DNA of 64,000 nt from the NCBI RefSeq assembly GCF_006094435.1, contig NZ_CP034783.1, positions 5,855,001 to 5,919,000 of the forward strand. Reading direction: 5' to 3'. The notes beneath the pieces were generated by a model. That model made no database searches. It saw only the letters and a list, made by a program, of their open reading frames with translations, and was not told the DNA's origin. This document shows, in pieces, positions 41,472-49,155 of the stretch. Position 1 is the stretch's first letter. Every line of letters begins with the position of its first letter. Source of the DNA: Pseudomonas sp. MPC6. GTDB lineage: Bacteria; Pseudomonadota; Gammaproteobacteria; Pseudomonadales; Pseudomonadaceae. Both the position numbers and the translations under genes were made by a program.

Positions 41472-41573
41472 TTGTAGGAGCCGGCTTGCTGGCGATGATC
41501 GTTAACGAAAACGCGTGCGGTCTGGGTAAACGCGGCGCACTTGAGTCCATCGCCAGCAAGCCGGCTCCTACAG
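41472..41573. repeat. REPIN abutting the amidase pseudogene
   Basis: CTTGTAGGAGCCGGCTTGCTGGCGATG and CATCGCCAGCAAGCCGGCTCCTACAGG flank a spacer with GTTAACGAAAACGCG. Its right end lies at the exact point where homology to the amidase begins, so it marks the breakpoint that removed the N-terminal half. Confidence 0.9.
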
Positions 41574-42128
41574 GTCGAAACCAAGCTCGCCTGGCATGCG
41601 GGCGTCAGTCACTGGGGCGAGCGGAGCAATCTGAATGACGCTTCTATCGGTGTAGAAATTGTCAACCTCGCGTCCTTTAACCTGGGGAAGTTCACCTTAC
41701 CTCCTTATCATCCAGCACAAATTGCAGCAGTTGAAGAGCTGGCGCTGGACATCCTTGAACGCTATCCGGGCATCAACCCCACCCGTGTTCTGGGCCACTG
41801 CGATATTGCGATCGGGCGCAAAAGTGACCCGGGGGCGCAATTTCCCTGGCATGCGCTTTACTTGAAAGGCATCGGTGCCTGGTTCGACGAGACCACTCGA
41901 AATGCCATTTAGCAGCAATATGTCGAGTCCGGCATTCCAGCCCGGTCCGAATTGCTGAAGTTGTTCAAGACTTACGGGTATGGCGTATCCGGCGCGACGA
42001 CCGAACAAGGCTTCACCCAGCTTGTCCGGGCATTTCAGTTGCACTTTCGCCCGGAAAAATATGATGGGGTCATGGATGCGCAAACGGCAGCGAATCTGAC
42101 GGCGTTGGTTCGTAAGTATTTTTCTTGA
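41574..42128 (+). pseudogene. N-acetylmuramoyl-L-alanine amidase (AmiD-like), truncated and with a nonsense codon
   Basis: The frame reads TKLAWHAGVSHWGERSNLNDASIGVEIVN, then VLGHCDIAIGRKSDPG, all hallmarks of the Amidase_2/AmiD peptidoglycan amidase. It stops at TAG 41910-41912. The same frame continues for 71 codons (QQYVESGIPARSELLKLFKTYGYGVSG..., a peptidoglycan-binding-like tail) to TGA 42126-42128. The N-terminal part, including the signal peptide and the first zinc histidine region, is missing, and the homology begins right after a REPIN. Truncation plus nonsense mutation makes this a decayed gene. Confidence 0.85.
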
Positions 42129-44560: not shown

Positions 44561-45016
44561 TCAGCCCCGCAGGGTACTGACCAACTCCGCCAGCCAGGGC
44601 TCGGCGTCGGTTTCCGGGGTCACGCTTTCGCTGGCGTCCAGGCGCAGCATGGGCAGCACTTCGCGAATGCCCAGTTCGCCGAACAGTTCACGCATCAGCT
44701 CCCCGCCGCCACAGAAGGTGTCGCCGTAGCTCGCATCGCCCAGCCCGATCACGGCGCCCGGCAAGCCACGCCAGGCCGCTGGCAACTGGTCGCGTATGGC
44801 GAAATACATCGGTTGCAAGTTGTCCGGCAGCTCGCCCATGCCAGTGGTCGAGGTCACCGCCAGGAAGGCCTCGGGGCCAAAGGCCTGAACATCGGCGAGG
44901 CTCGCGCGCGGGTTATGGAAGGTGGCGAAGCCTGCGTTCTGCAAAATGCTCGCAGCGTGGCGGGCGACTTCTTCAGCCGTGCCGTACACCGAGCCGGAAA
45001 GGATGGCGACTTTCAT
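44561..45016 (-). CDS. Flavodoxin (MioC/YqcA-like)
   Basis: 151-aa FMN protein for single-electron transfer. The phosphate loop SGSVYGTAEEVA is at residues about 7-18, the second FMN loop has TSTTGMGELPDNLQPMY and the third LGDASYGDTFCGGGELM. Short-chain flavodoxins of the MioC/YqcA group have this length. The start is ATG 45016; the preceding in-frame TTG is not needed. It is divergent from the LOV gene with 144 bases between the starts. Confidence 0.92.
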   Translation of the reverse strand: MKVAILSGSVYGTAEEVARHAASILQNAGFATFHNPRASLADVQAFGPEAFLAVTSTTGMGELPDNLQPMYFAIRDQLPAAWRGLPGAVIGLGDASYGDTFCGGGELMRELFGELGIREVLPMLRLDASESVTPETDAEPWLAELVSTLRG

Positions 45017-45160
45017 CAATCTGATCCTGAATCTGAGTAAAAAAGAGGGGGGATATTAACAGCCACAGCAAAAAATCTGCGATTAGCTCTCATTTCGCAT
45101 TGAGGGCCACTAGAGTTCTTTTTTAGAATGCTGCTCAATCAATCTGGAAAGGACCCTCCG

Positions 45161-45637
45161 ATGATCAACGCACAACTGCTGCAAATGGTGATCAACGCTT
45201 CCAACGACGGCATCGTGATTGCCGAAAAGGAAGGCGAGCAGGACAACATTCTGATTTACGTCAACCCGGCATTCGAGCGGCTGACCGGTTATACCAGCGA
45301 AGAAATCCTCTATCAGGATTGCCGCTTCCTTCAGTCCGGGGACCGCGATCAGCAAGCCCTGCCATTGATTAGAGAGGCATTGCGCAGCGGCGGTTCCTGC
45401 CGGGAAATTCTGCGCAATTACCGCAAGGATGGCACGCCATTCTGGAACGAACTGTCGCTGTCGACGGTGAAAAATCCGCACGACGGGCAGACTTATTTTG
45501 TCGGCGTGCAGAAAGACGTCACCGTCCAGGTCAAGGCGCAGCAGCGGGTGGTGCAGCTGGAGGCGCAATTGGCTGAAGTCCAGGCCGAACTTGCCGCACT
45601 CAAAGCGACGAACGGCGAAAACAAAACCGCGAATTAA
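45161..45637 (+). CDS. Short LOV blue-light photoreceptor protein
   Basis: 158 aa, a stand-alone LOV (PAS) domain with helical caps. The core starts MINAQLLQMVINASNDGIVIAEKEG, has the flavin-adduct motif YQDCRFLQ with reactive Cys54, then NYRKDGTPFWNELSLS and YFVGVQKDVT, all residues expected for FMN binding. The C-terminal J-alpha region (residues about 120-150, heptad-like VVQLEAQLAEVQAELAAL) is a coiled coil for dimerisation. It closely resembles the Pseudomonas short LOV proteins PpSB1/PpSB2-LOV and SBW25-LOV, which form a cysteinyl-FMN adduct in blue light. ATG 45161 has GGAAAGGA ahead of it. Confidence 0.95.
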   Translation: MINAQLLQMVINASNDGIVIAEKEGEQDNILIYVNPAFERLTGYTSEEILYQDCRFLQSGDRDQQALPLIREALRSGGSCREILRNYRKDGTPFWNELSLSTVKNPHDGQTYFVGVQKDVTVQVKAQQRVVQLEAQLAEVQAELAALKATNGENKTAN

Positions 45638-45691
45638 TGGTCACTTACTACAATCACCGATGACTTTGTAACTATTTTCTTCGAGCCAATC

Positions 45692-46297
45692 ATGCAGCGC
45701 GACGCACTCCTGACCCAGGATGAACTGGATTTTATCCAGACCATGCAGCATAACCCGCAACTCAATGTGCGGGATGCGACGTCGAGCCTGCTGGTCAACG
45801 GTGGTTCGCAGATCCGTGACTTGCTCACGCGCCTTGCCGCTCATGAGCAAGTCACCCTCCAGGCCACGTTCGAAAACCAGCAGATGACCTTCCCGCTGCA
45901 GCTGGTGGAAGACGAGTTTCATGCGCTGCATTTACGCCTCGGCGTACCCAGCATCTATGAAGACGGGCCGATGGTCCGGCCCTGGCGCCTGGTACTTGAG
46001 GAGCCGGTGGCGCTGGAAAATGCCAGTGGCCAGCCCGGCAGAATGTGGGTACACGAAGTGTCGTTCAAAGGGGTGTTGCTGGAAGTTCGCAACAAGACCA
46101 AACCCCCCAGGCATTTCGCCTTGTGGTTCAGCCCGTCAGGCTATGAGCGGATTGCGTTGCGCGGCACCCTCGAGAAAGAAACCGATAACGGCTTCCATGC
46201 CTATCAGCTGAACCAGGGCGACAAGGACGAAACCGAGCGTCTGCGCCAATTCATCCTGCAACAGCATCGGCTAACCCATCCCGCCCTGCATCTCTGA
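45692..46297 (+). CDS. PilZ-like two-domain protein of unknown function
   Basis: 201 aa, soluble. The N-terminal part (about 1-85) has a helix and beta strands as in YcgR-N-like domains; the C-terminal half reads as a PilZ barrel: RPWRLVLEEPVALENASG and then MWVHEVSFKGVLLEVRNKTKPPRHFALWF. The c-di-GMP motifs are only partly kept: RPWR instead of RxxxR and EVSFKG instead of (D/N)xSxxG, so binding is uncertain. It lies 54 bases after the LOV gene in the same direction and converges on the MerR gene, one base apart. The link with the photoreceptor is positional only. Confidence 0.7.
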   Translation: MQRDALLTQDELDFIQTMQHNPQLNVRDATSSLLVNGGSQIRDLLTRLAAHEQVTLQATFENQQMTFPLQLVEDEFHALHLRLGVPSIYEDGPMVRPWRLVLEEPVALENASGQPGRMWVHEVSFKGVLLEVRNKTKPPRHFALWFSPSGYERIALRGTLEKETDNGFHAYQLNQGDKDETERLRQFILQQHRLTHPALHL

Positions 46298-46298
46298 C

Positions 46299-47276
46299 TC
46301 ACGTATCGAGATTGCCGGCCAGGAACTGCTTCAACCGTTGGCGCATCACCATTGCCTCGCTCCCCAGACATCCGACCGACGATCCGGCCAGGCTCTCCTG
46401 CGCCAGATCCGACGCATCCCCTGCCAGCATCAACTGGCAATCCAGCCCCAAGGCCAGGCGATTCAAGCGTCGTGGCAACTCGGGTGCTGGCATATGATTG
46501 GAAAACAGCACCAGCGCCTGGGGCTTGACCCTTTCGCAGACCAGGGTCAATTCGTCGAAAGGCTGACCCAGCGCCAGCACTTGAATGGCCGAATCGACAC
46601 TGCTCAGAAACAGCGCCGTGACCAGCACTTCGAGTTCACGGCACTGATCGTTCAGCGCGCAGACAATCACCCGTCGCGGCTGCATGACCCGCACCAGCAG
46701 CAGACGCTGCAACACCCGAGAACGCAGGAAGCCATCCAGAAACAGCCATTCGCTGGCCTGGCCATAGGCTTCCTGGCGCTGCAGCAACAGTTTCCACAGC
46801 GGCAGCAGGATGTTCTGAAACACCACCGTCAGCGGGTAACTGGCAAAGATCTGCCCATAGACCTGCTCCAGGCGAGGCTCGTCAAAGGCAACGACCGCCG
46901 CCTGGACTTGCTCCTGCCATTGCGCGTAATCCGCTTGCACCAGCTCATTCGGGATAATGGGCGACAGCGCCTGGAGCGGTGCAGCCCGAGCCAGAATCTT
47001 GCCGACCTTGCTGACCGCAACGCCGCGTTCGATCCAGCTGAGAATGCTGCGAATGCGCTCGATATCGTCCATCGAATACAGACGATGTCCACTGTCGGTG
47101 CGCATGGGCTGAATCAGCCCATAACGTCGTTCCCAGGCGCGTAGCGTGACCGGGTTGACGCCGGTCAGGCGCGCCACTTCACGAATCGGAAACAGCTCTT
47201 CCTGTCCGAGCGAAGCAGTGCCTTGCACAGTTGGGACATCGTCGGTCAACACAGGCATGTACATGTCTACGTCCAT
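46299..47276 (-). CDS. MerR-family LitR/CarH-like regulator lacking B12 ligands
   Basis: 325 aa. The MerR HTH (residues about 28-95: PIREVARLTGVNPVTLRAWERRYGLIQPMRTDSGHRLYSMDDIERI) is followed by a helical region (about 110-195) and a Rossmann-like cobalamin-binding-type domain (about 198-320). The cobalamin His motif of CarH/LitR (ExHxxG) is replaced by DQCRELE at about 210-216, and the Glu-His of the helical bundle by SEWLF, so B12 should not bind. This fits the class III LitR proteins of Pseudomonas (PplR1/PplR2 of P. putida), which act together with a short LOV photoreceptor. It is divergent from folM-folE-folX. Confidence 0.85.
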   Translation of the reverse strand: MDVDMYMPVLTDDVPTVQGTASLGQEELFPIREVARLTGVNPVTLRAWERRYGLIQPMRTDSGHRLYSMDDIERIRSILSWIERGVAVSKVGKILARAAPLQALSPIIPNELVQADYAQWQEQVQAAVVAFDEPRLEQVYGQIFASYPLTVVFQNILLPLWKLLLQRQEAYGQASEWLFLDGFLRSRVLQRLLLVRVMQPRRVIVCALNDQCRELEVLVTALFLSSVDSAIQVLALGQPFDELTLVCERVKPQALVLFSNHMPAPELPRRLNRLALGLDCQLMLAGDASDLAQESLAGSSVGCLGSEAMVMRQRLKQFLAGNLDT

Positions 47277-47404
47277 GTGAATTGGATCCTATTGTACCGC
47301 GCTTGCCCTATCGTTATTCAAGGCCTGCAGAAGACACGCGCGTAATAGGTGTAGGTCTCCCGTTCGCTGGTATAGTTTTGCTCTCACTGCGACGCGAGCC
47401 GTTC
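47277..47404. promoter_or_regulatory. Divergent control region between the LitR-like gene and folM
   Basis: 128 bases hold both promoters. TTGTAC at 47292-47297 and the palindrome ATGTACAT at 47257-47264 (inside the 5' end of the regulator gene) resemble TGTACA-type LitR/CarH half sites. TATAGT at 47371-47376 is a plausible -10 for folM; no good -35 is seen at the right distance, which is common for MerR-activated promoters. Assignment is tentative. Confidence 0.4.
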
Positions 47405-48115
47405 ATGACCTCTTCATTCGCCCCGATCCTCATCACCGGCGCCGGCCAGCGTGTCGGCCTGCACTGTGCGCAGCGATTGCTCGAAGACGGCCACCCGGTG
47501 ATCTTCAGCTACCGCAGCGAGCGCCCCGGTGTGCAAACCCTGCGCGACCTGGGGGCGACCGCGGTGTTTGCAGACTTCTCCACCGAGGCCGGGATCTTTG
47601 CCTTCATCCGCGAACTGAACACCCACACCGACAGCCTGCGGGCGATCGTCCATAACGCCTCCGAATGGCTGGCCGAAACCCCGGACACCGACGCCGCCGC
47701 CTTTACCCGCATGTTCAACGTGCATATGCTGGCGCCCTACCTGATCAACCTGCATTGTGCCGATTTGCTCGAACGCTCGTGCCCCGCCGACATCGTGCAC
47801 ATCAGCGATGACGTGACCCGCAAGGGCAGCAGCAAGCACATCGGCTATTGCGCCAGCAAAGCCGGGCTCGATAGCCTGACCCTGTCTTTCGCCGCCAAAT
47901 ACGCGCCGACCATCAAGGTCAACGGTATCGCGCCAGCCCTGCTACTGTTCAACCCCGACGACGACGCGGCGTACCGCGCCAAGGCATTGGCCAAGTCGGC
48001 CCTGGGCATCGAACCCGGCAGCGAAGTGATCTACCAGAGCTTGCGCTACCTGCTCGACAACCCTTATGTCACCGGCACCACCCTGACCGTCAACGGCGGA
48101 CGGCACATCAAATAA
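47405..48115 (+). CDS. folM: Dihydromonapterin/dihydrofolate reductase FolM
   Basis: 236-aa SDR that reduces dihydromonapterin (and dihydrofolate) with NADPH. TGAGQRVG at residues 11-18 is the cofactor loop, with Arg typical for NADPH; YCASK gives catalytic Tyr148 and Lys152; HISDDVTRKGSSKHIGY and NGIAPALLLFNPDDD match FolM/PTR1-like pteridine reductases. ATG 47405; longer frames lie in the divergent control region. It is the first gene of folM-folE-folX, an arrangement that makes tetrahydromonapterin in Pseudomonas. Confidence 0.92.
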   Translation: MTSSFAPILITGAGQRVGLHCAQRLLEDGHPVIFSYRSERPGVQTLRDLGATAVFADFSTEAGIFAFIRELNTHTDSLRAIVHNASEWLAETPDTDAAAFTRMFNVHMLAPYLINLHCADLLERSCPADIVHISDDVTRKGSSKHIGYCASKAGLDSLTLSFAAKYAPTIKVNGIAPALLLFNPDDDAAYRAKALAKSALGIEPGSEVIYQSLRYLLDNPYVTGTTLTVNGGRHIK

Positions 48116-48136
48116 GCGCCCCCGCGAGGATGTTCC

Positions 48137-48697
48137 ATGACGTTATCCCTGCCCCAGAACTATCGCGAGATCCTCATCGGTCTCGGCGAAAACCCCGACC
48201 GCGAAGGCCTGCGCGACACCCCGGTGCGCGCCGCCAAGGCCATGCAGTACCTCTGCCATGGCTACGAGCAGAGTGTCGAAGCAATCGTCAACGGTGCGCT
48301 GTTCGCTTCCGACAACGATGAAATGATCATCGTCGACAACATCGAGCTGTACTCGCTTTGCGAACATCACATGCTGCCCTTCATCGGCAAGGCTCATGTG
48401 GCTTATATTCCAACGGGCAAGGTGCTGGGCCTGTCGAAGATTGCGCGGCTGGTGGACATGTTCGCCCGTCGCCTGCAGATCCAGGAAAACCTCACCCGGC
48501 AAATCGCCGATGCCGTGCAGCAAGTGACCGGTGCGGCGGGCGTCGCGGTGGTCATCGAAGCCCGGCACATGTGCATGATGATGCGCGGCGTCGAGAAACA
48601 GAATTCGACCATGAACACCTCGGTGATGCTCGGCGCCTTTCGCGAATCGAGCAACACCCGCCAGGAGTTTCTGCAATTGATCGGACGGAGCAAGTAG
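48137..48697 (+). CDS. folE: GTP cyclohydrolase I
   Basis: 186-aa enzyme forming 7,8-dihydroneopterin triphosphate from GTP, the entry to pterin and folate synthesis. Zinc ligands Cys75 and His78 ([10 protein letters not shown]) and Cys146 (HMCMMMRGV) are intact; [27 protein letters not shown] is the usual active-site helix region. It starts 21 bases after folM, and its stop is two bases from folX. In P. putida a folE copy belongs to the light-inducible genes under the LitR/LOV system; here it lies right next to such regulators. Confidence 0.96.
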
Positions 48698-48699
48698 CA

Positions 48700-49071
48700 A
48701 TGCCACAACTTCAACCAGGAATGGCGCGCATCCGGGTCAAGGACCTGTGCCTGCGCACCTTCATCGGGATCAACGAGGATGAAATCCTCAACAAGCAGGA
48801 TGTGTTGATCAACCTGACCATCCTCTATGCCGCCCAGGAAGCGGTGCGTGACAACGACATCGATCACGCGCTGAACTACCGGACCATCACCAAGGCGATC
48901 ATCGCCCACGTGGAGGGCAATCGCTTCGCCCTGCTCGAACGCCTGACCCAGGAAATTCTCGACCTGGTCATGGCCAACGAGTCGGTGCTGTATGCCGAGG
49001 TCGAAGTCGACAAGCCCCACGCCCTGCGTTTCGCCGAGTCGGTGTCGATTACGCTGGCGGCGAGCCGCTAA
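48700..49071 (+). CDS. folX: Dihydroneopterin triphosphate 2'-epimerase FolX
   Basis: 123-aa member of the dihydroneopterin aldolase/epimerase family; FolX converts dihydroneopterin triphosphate to dihydromonapterin triphosphate. [51 protein letters not shown] and [13 protein letters not shown] are the family blocks. Start ATG 48700 is two bases after folE stop; ATG 48721 is possible but its AGGA is too close. With folE and folM it completes the tetrahydromonapterin route, which supplies the cofactor for phenylalanine hydroxylase in pseudomonads. Confidence 0.93.
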
Positions 49072-49155
49072 GCTTCAAGCCTCAAGTCGCAAGCTGTAAA
49101 CTGACAGCCACCGCAATCCATCTTGCAGCTTGAAGCTTGCCGCTTGAAGCTGTCT
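49072..49155. repeat. Intergenic repeat of the AAGCTTCAAGC(T)GCAAG family
   Basis: AGCTTCAAGCCTCAAGTCGCAAGCTG is followed after about 30 bases by its inverted partners CTTGCAGCTTGAAGCTTGCCGCTTGAAGCTG. This repeat type is unrelated to the REP core and is known as a frequent intergenic element in Pseudomonas genomes. Confidence 0.7.

Follow-up and report, generated by a model that had tools for sequence, protein, structure and literature searches.

The closest described system to the locus analysed here is that of Pseudomonas mendocina NBRC 14162, where pmlR2, a hypothetical gene, pmSB-LOV and folM-folE-folX are found together (PMC9758184, Maruyama, 2022). In P. mendocina the short LOV blue-light receptor binds its LitR partner in a light-dependent manner, which results in anti-repression, and LitR produces a gel shift of the folM promoter (PMC9758184). 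The operator consensus is T(G/A)TACA-N12-TGTA(C/T)A and the P. mendocina folM site is TGTACA-N12-GGTATA (PMC9758184). Light induces folM 2.4–2.5-fold and folE 1.6–3.3-fold, and the levels of LOV and pmlR2 are nearly constant (PMC9758184). P. putida KT2440 has a related system consisting of PplR1–PplR3 and PpSB1/PpSB2-LOV, with a regulon that includes phrB, ufaM and a folE (PMC9758184, PMC8508746). The LOV-hypothetical-LitR cluster is reported to be conserved across Pseudomonas (PMC9758184). In the set of papers searched for PplR, PmlR2, class II LitR, and LOV with PilZ or folE, the cluster is described in PMC9758184 alone; the accessible part of a P. cichorii LOV paper has no mention of LitR, PilZ or folE. 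The locus described here is in a 64,000 nt stretch of the Pseudomonas sp. MPC6 genome, positions 5855001–5919000 of the contig designated G000:C4 (the window). It shares with P. mendocina a LOV gene, one hypothetical gene (encoding a PilZ-like protein), a class II LitR gene and folM-folE-folX.

The locus probably represents a short-LOV/class II LitR switch in its usual place that acts mainly in trans and has weak or lost control over the fol genes. The pairing of LOV with LitR is itself highly probable, and the loss of fol control in this strain, as judged from the operator sequence, is reasonably likely. A preliminary description of this DNA had listed the genes, their order and their motifs, and all of the named genes are present at the places given (Table 1). 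The LOV gene is one gene away from the LitR gene, which is convergent with the LOV-PilZ-like pair and divergent from the three pterin genes. The sensor, regulator and pterin genes are thus physically together as proposed; the arrangement is already known, however, having been published in 2022 (PMC9758184).

The LOV protein fits the Pseudomonas short LOV type (PpSB/PmSB-LOV) by its adduct cysteine and lack of an effector domain, and binding of flavin mononucleotide and a photocycle are predicted. Cys54 is within the motif YQDCRFLQ, and the form YxDCR[FLM][LM]Q is found in 85/85 LOV proteins from the 100 Pseudomonas loci described below. The protein has a PAS_9 match of 77 bits (the query began at 45149, a non-start codon, and carried four extra residues), and its top PDB match is 7yx0 (E = 7e-76). 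These properties bear out the earlier designation of a complete short LOV protein with a flavin cysteine. The residue 13 positions past the cysteine is Leu in 60 of the 85 LOV proteins, Arg in 22, Val in two and Ile in one. The LOV protein of the window has Leu67 at this position, whereas PpSB1-LOV of P. putida has the R66-type arginine, a position that tunes its dark recovery, with 23 min for the R66I variant against 2471 min (PMC6047819). The window protein keeps three of the four arginines that contact the phosphate in PpSB1-LOV, and with Leu67 it is predicted to recover faster than PpSB1.

The regulator is assigned to class II LitR on the basis of its MerR helix-turn-helix (HTH), the missing B12-ligand His and its place in a LOV-linked clade. 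The MerR_1 HTH at the N-terminus scores 60 bits. The predicted fold matches that of CarH (5c8f, E = 2e-11); the window LitR thus has the MerR HTH and a predicted overall fold in common with CarH, the class I LitR of Thermus thermophilus, but lacks the B12-ligand His and a Pfam B12 domain (no match at E ≤ 5). There is also no match to PF02607 (B12-binding_2, a four-helix domain), although the structure model shows helices in this region. A B12-binding_2 match is reported for PmlR2 of P. mendocina with an E value of 3.5e-7 (PMC9758184); in our comparison this domain is above the cut-off in 4/5 phrB-type LitRs and in 0/4 of the LOV-clade LitRs tested. A tree of 40 LitR sequences places 26 LOV-linked proteins in one clade, separate from 14 phrB-type proteins, with support of 100/100. 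Named LitRs of P. mendocina and P. putida are not among the 40; L165, L182, L185, L186 and L192 were omitted as no start was found, and L166, L170 and L171 as copies of included loci. The preliminary description of a B12-less, LitR-like MerR regulator is supported, and its partnership with a short LOV protein has been shown in P. mendocina (PMC9758184). The class III label given earlier to such regulators is wrong, as the published classification puts those of P. putida and P. mendocina in class II (PMC9758184).

The window strain belongs to the P. fluorescens group, as judged from protein identities to P. fluorescens PS833 (98%, PilZ-like protein) and P. silesiensis (99%, LitR). In contrast to the intact P. 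mendocina site, the folM operator in the window is degenerate. Positions 47350–47374 (+) represent a remnant, TGTAGG-N13-GGTATA, of the published site; a putative promoter has its likely -10 box, TATAGT (47371–47376), partly within the right half of this remnant. A site of the TRTACA-N12-TGTAYA type is not found at folM, and when the aligned site is read at N12 the left half has 0/6 matches. Within the whole window no LitR operator has 0 or 1 mismatch, the fewest being two. The best operator-like match near folM is at 47258–47281 (+), with 10 of 12 positions. This stretch extends across the start of LitR, has no counterpart at the same place in 22 aligned relatives, and is probably a chance match rather than a conserved LitR site.

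The folM sites of other genomes were compared with that of the window. Mendocina-like folMEX loci, defined by a PilZ-like protein under 50% identical to the window protein, have TGTACA as the left half in 21/21, with scores of 10–12 out of 12 (16 loci at 12). Fluorescens-like folMEX loci number 37, of which 11 reach a score of 11 or 12 and the other 26 are at 7–10. Further close relatives (the best 80 of 425) were reduced to 77, since L201, L221 and L226 have no readable folM. Left-half matches at N12 in these are 5/6 in 14, 4 in 22, 3 in 21, 2 in nine, 1 in four and 0 in seven, and never 6; the GGTATA/TTATA -10 part is kept. One relative, L206, shares TGTAGG-N13-GGTATA with the window. By these alignments the folM site is weakened in the group as a whole and not at random, and in the window it appears broken. 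As a separate observation, the folM operators at L144, L147 and L148, which are the only fluorescens-like sites at 12/12, and at L081 have an intact TGTACA; these genomes have no short LOV and no LOV-clade LitR and keep the phrB-type LitR.

Well-preserved operators are found elsewhere in the genome. There are 21 sites at 0–1 mismatch compared with 11 for the reversed pattern, and eight are exact. Three of the exact sites are inside coding frames and five are intergenic, in two loci, L060 and L061. L060 has a second LitR-LOV pair, arranged head to head (L060:7557–9190, approximately 5323556–5325189 on the same contig). Past this pair are two exact tandem operators, followed by an operon of SnoaL, SDR, FAD oxidoreductase, DUF1365 and cyclopropane/furan fatty acid methyltransferase genes; the third L060 site is ahead of a small gene. 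The two sites in L061 are ahead of a DUF1722-LitR-phrB (photolyase) operon. Exact TGTACA-N12-TGTACA is present at 1–5 sites in 19/20 fluorescens-like genomes, with 0 for the reversed control, and where one site per genome was examined, 12/19 are ahead of DUF1722-LitR-phrB. An altered DNA preference of the window LitR is unlikely because its HTH is identical to those of the other two LitRs of the genome at 45/68 and 44/68 positions.

The pair in the window probably acts mainly in trans because the folM operator is degenerate and clean tandem operators are present in L060 and L061. By analogy with P. mendocina, LitR would bind TGTACA-N12-TGTACA operators in the dark and block their promoters. 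Blue light would induce a flavin adduct at Cys54, and the lit LOV dimer, if it behaves as its orthologue does, would bind the HTH part of LitR and lift it from the DNA. The main candidate targets are the SnoaL operon of L060 and the DUF1722-LitR-photolyase operon of L061. The folM-folE-folX operon keeps its place and -10 element, and its light control in this strain is predicted to be weak or gone because the operator left half and spacing have been lost.

The association of LOV with LitR was followed in a sample of 199 Pseudomonas genomes, in which the PilZ-like gene is present in 191. From these 191, 100 loci were fetched, consisting of 40/41 of the most distant (G008 omitted) together with 60 selected among the closer genomes listed. 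At the locus, 77 have both LOV and LitR, eight have LOV alone, 15 have neither and 0 have LitR alone. The genes are associated beyond chance: the full set of LOV, LitR, folM, folE and folX is within ~6 kb in 53/100 loci; other combinations are found in 3/4 loci without it, and the full set is therefore common, not universal. A genome-wide check covered 27 genomes picked by hand, including 23 selected for a missing LOV or LitR at the locus, with a threshold of 200 bits or more for the LOV-clade LitR. This LitR is present in 13/15 genomes with a short LOV and in 0/12 without, and the phrB-type LitR in 27/27. In 6/8 of the loci with LOV alone, the LOV-clade LitR has been relocated elsewhere in the genome. 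A rule that LitR never occurs without LOV held in the first 100 loci and was broken by L243, one of the 80 further close relatives, where the LOV gene is cleanly gone between the flavodoxin and PilZ-like genes (L243:5818–6000).

The 201 aa product of the PilZ-like gene is predicted by structure modeling to have a PilZ fold, in common with YcgR, MrkH and Alg44. There is no Pfam match for the protein, including PF07238, and a PDB sequence search gave 0 matches; PF07238 is precomputed for 20/65 of its distant relatives. Residues R96, R99, S124 and G127 are invariant among 75 PilZ-like sequences. The usual PilZ motifs for cyclic di-GMP (c-di-GMP) are Arg-x-x-x-Arg and Asp/Asn-x-Ser-x-x-Gly. These canonical forms are not found here and, unlike in YcgR, MrkH and Alg44, are replaced by Arg-x-x-Arg and Glu-x-Ser-x-x-Gly. 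The PilZ-like gene is accompanied by flavodoxin in 100/100 loci. They are probably not dedicated parts of a light module, because they stay side by side in the 15 loci where LOV and LitR are absent.

An alternative with some claim is that sensor, repressor and target are together here, with folM-folE-folX as the main light-controlled output of the cluster. The weak induction and gel shift in P. mendocina (PMC9758184) favour it, as does the presence of folMEX beside LOV and LitR in 53/77 LitR-positive loci compared with 4/15 loci with neither. The lack of any 0–1 mismatch operator in the window and the 0/6 left half argue against it, as do 17/77 LOV+LitR loci that have merely a folM-like gene (41–45% identity) and no folE, and the intact folM operators at L144, L147 and L148 in genomes without the pair. 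This alternative is thus possible but unlikely. The earlier proposal of the fol operon as a light target, demonstrated in P. mendocina (PMC9758184), is accordingly weakened for this strain. Several points also weigh against a mainly trans-acting pair. In P. mendocina, folM/folE induction is weak even with an intact operator (PMC9758184). In 36/77 close relatives 4–5 of 6 left-half bases are kept, and weak operators can still work; the 11–12 scorers include near relatives (L105, L107, L110 and L111), and 3/11 of these scorers have no LOV and LitR. The 10/12 match over the LitR start is attained by 4.2% of shuffles. Two of the 27 genomes have LOV without a LOV-clade LitR, L243 has an intact LitR with no short LOV genome-wide, and the folded LitR model has a mean pLDDT of 63.

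A larger response that joins LitR, LOV, the PilZ protein and flavodoxin, as the preliminary description had suggested, is improbable. The flavodoxin-LOV-PilZ order is held in 85/100 loci, and LOV and the PilZ-like gene are co-directional with a median gap of 71 bp (85 LOV loci). The 15 loci mentioned above and the occurrence of the PilZ-like gene in 191/199 genomes are against such a response, as is the lack of an operator at the LOV promoter. Autoregulation of LOV was likewise rejected, since no site in the flavodoxin-LOV gap is below 3 mismatches. In Agrobacterium, a relative of FolM takes part in a route that leads from pterins to c-di-GMP (PMC13259868). It is also improbable that the PilZ protein is a c-di-GMP receptor through which the locus is coupled to pterin metabolism, with light, pterins and c-di-GMP meeting here; if true, the PilZ-fol neighbourhood would be the older part, to which LOV-LitR was joined as a light input and from which it has in part been uncoupled again in the group of the window strain. 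That LitR itself senses light, or works with B12, is very improbable. Its CarH-like predicted fold is consistent with this, but the Pfam B12 domain is absent, and Glu-x-His-x-x-Gly of CarH is aligned to Gln-Cys-Arg-Glu-Leu-Glu in LitR (a stretch of just 3.9 bits). In addition, B12 is dispensable in P. putida (PMC9758184).

Table 1. Genes of the LOV-LitR-fol locus (positions in the window)
Feature	Position	Strand	Remarks
Flavodoxin	44561..45016	-	NCBIfam PRK05723, 290 bits (cut-off 204)
Short LOV blue-light receptor lacking an effector domain, 158 aa	45161..45637	+	ATG at 45161; Cys54
PilZ-like protein, 201 aa	45692..46297	+	predicted C-terminal PilZ domain, residues ~94–199
Class II LitR-like MerR repressor, PmlR2 type	46299..47276	-	MerR HTH; start possibly at internal Met
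folM, dihydromonapterin reductase	47405..48115	+	NCBIfam PRK06483, 358 bits
folE, GTP cyclohydrolase I	48137..48697	+	NCBIfam equivalog cut-off passed
folX, dihydroneopterin triphosphate 2'-epimerase	48700..49071	+	NCBIfam PRK11245, 195 bits

The three fol enzymes are encoded in a row and each is above its NCBIfam equivalog cut-off; the folE gene is one of two in the genome. A gene for an ABM-domain membrane protein is found by the LitR-folM gap in 71/80 close relatives and is missing here (47277–47404); its top match elsewhere in the genome is merely 34% identical. Two further observations were made by eye. A palindromic, repeat-like stretch (AAGCTTCAAG/CTTGAAGCTT) is located at 49074–49150, between folX and the DUF1244-HopJ genes, and a short reading frame at 41541–41912 resembles a piece of an AmpD-type amidase.

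Taken as a whole, the earlier interpretation holds for the LOV/LitR partners, the divergent fol operon and the PilZ-like gene; the class and the novelty do not stand, and the fol target and the flavodoxin and PilZ roles are weakened. What this strain has is an ordinary orthologue of a photoreceptor-repressor pair known from the literature. Adjacency should not be taken as regulation, as the neighbouring operon seems to be in place with its operator lost. Related strains share this sensor and repressor and differ in whether the folM operator is intact, weakened or broken, which makes for a clean comparison.

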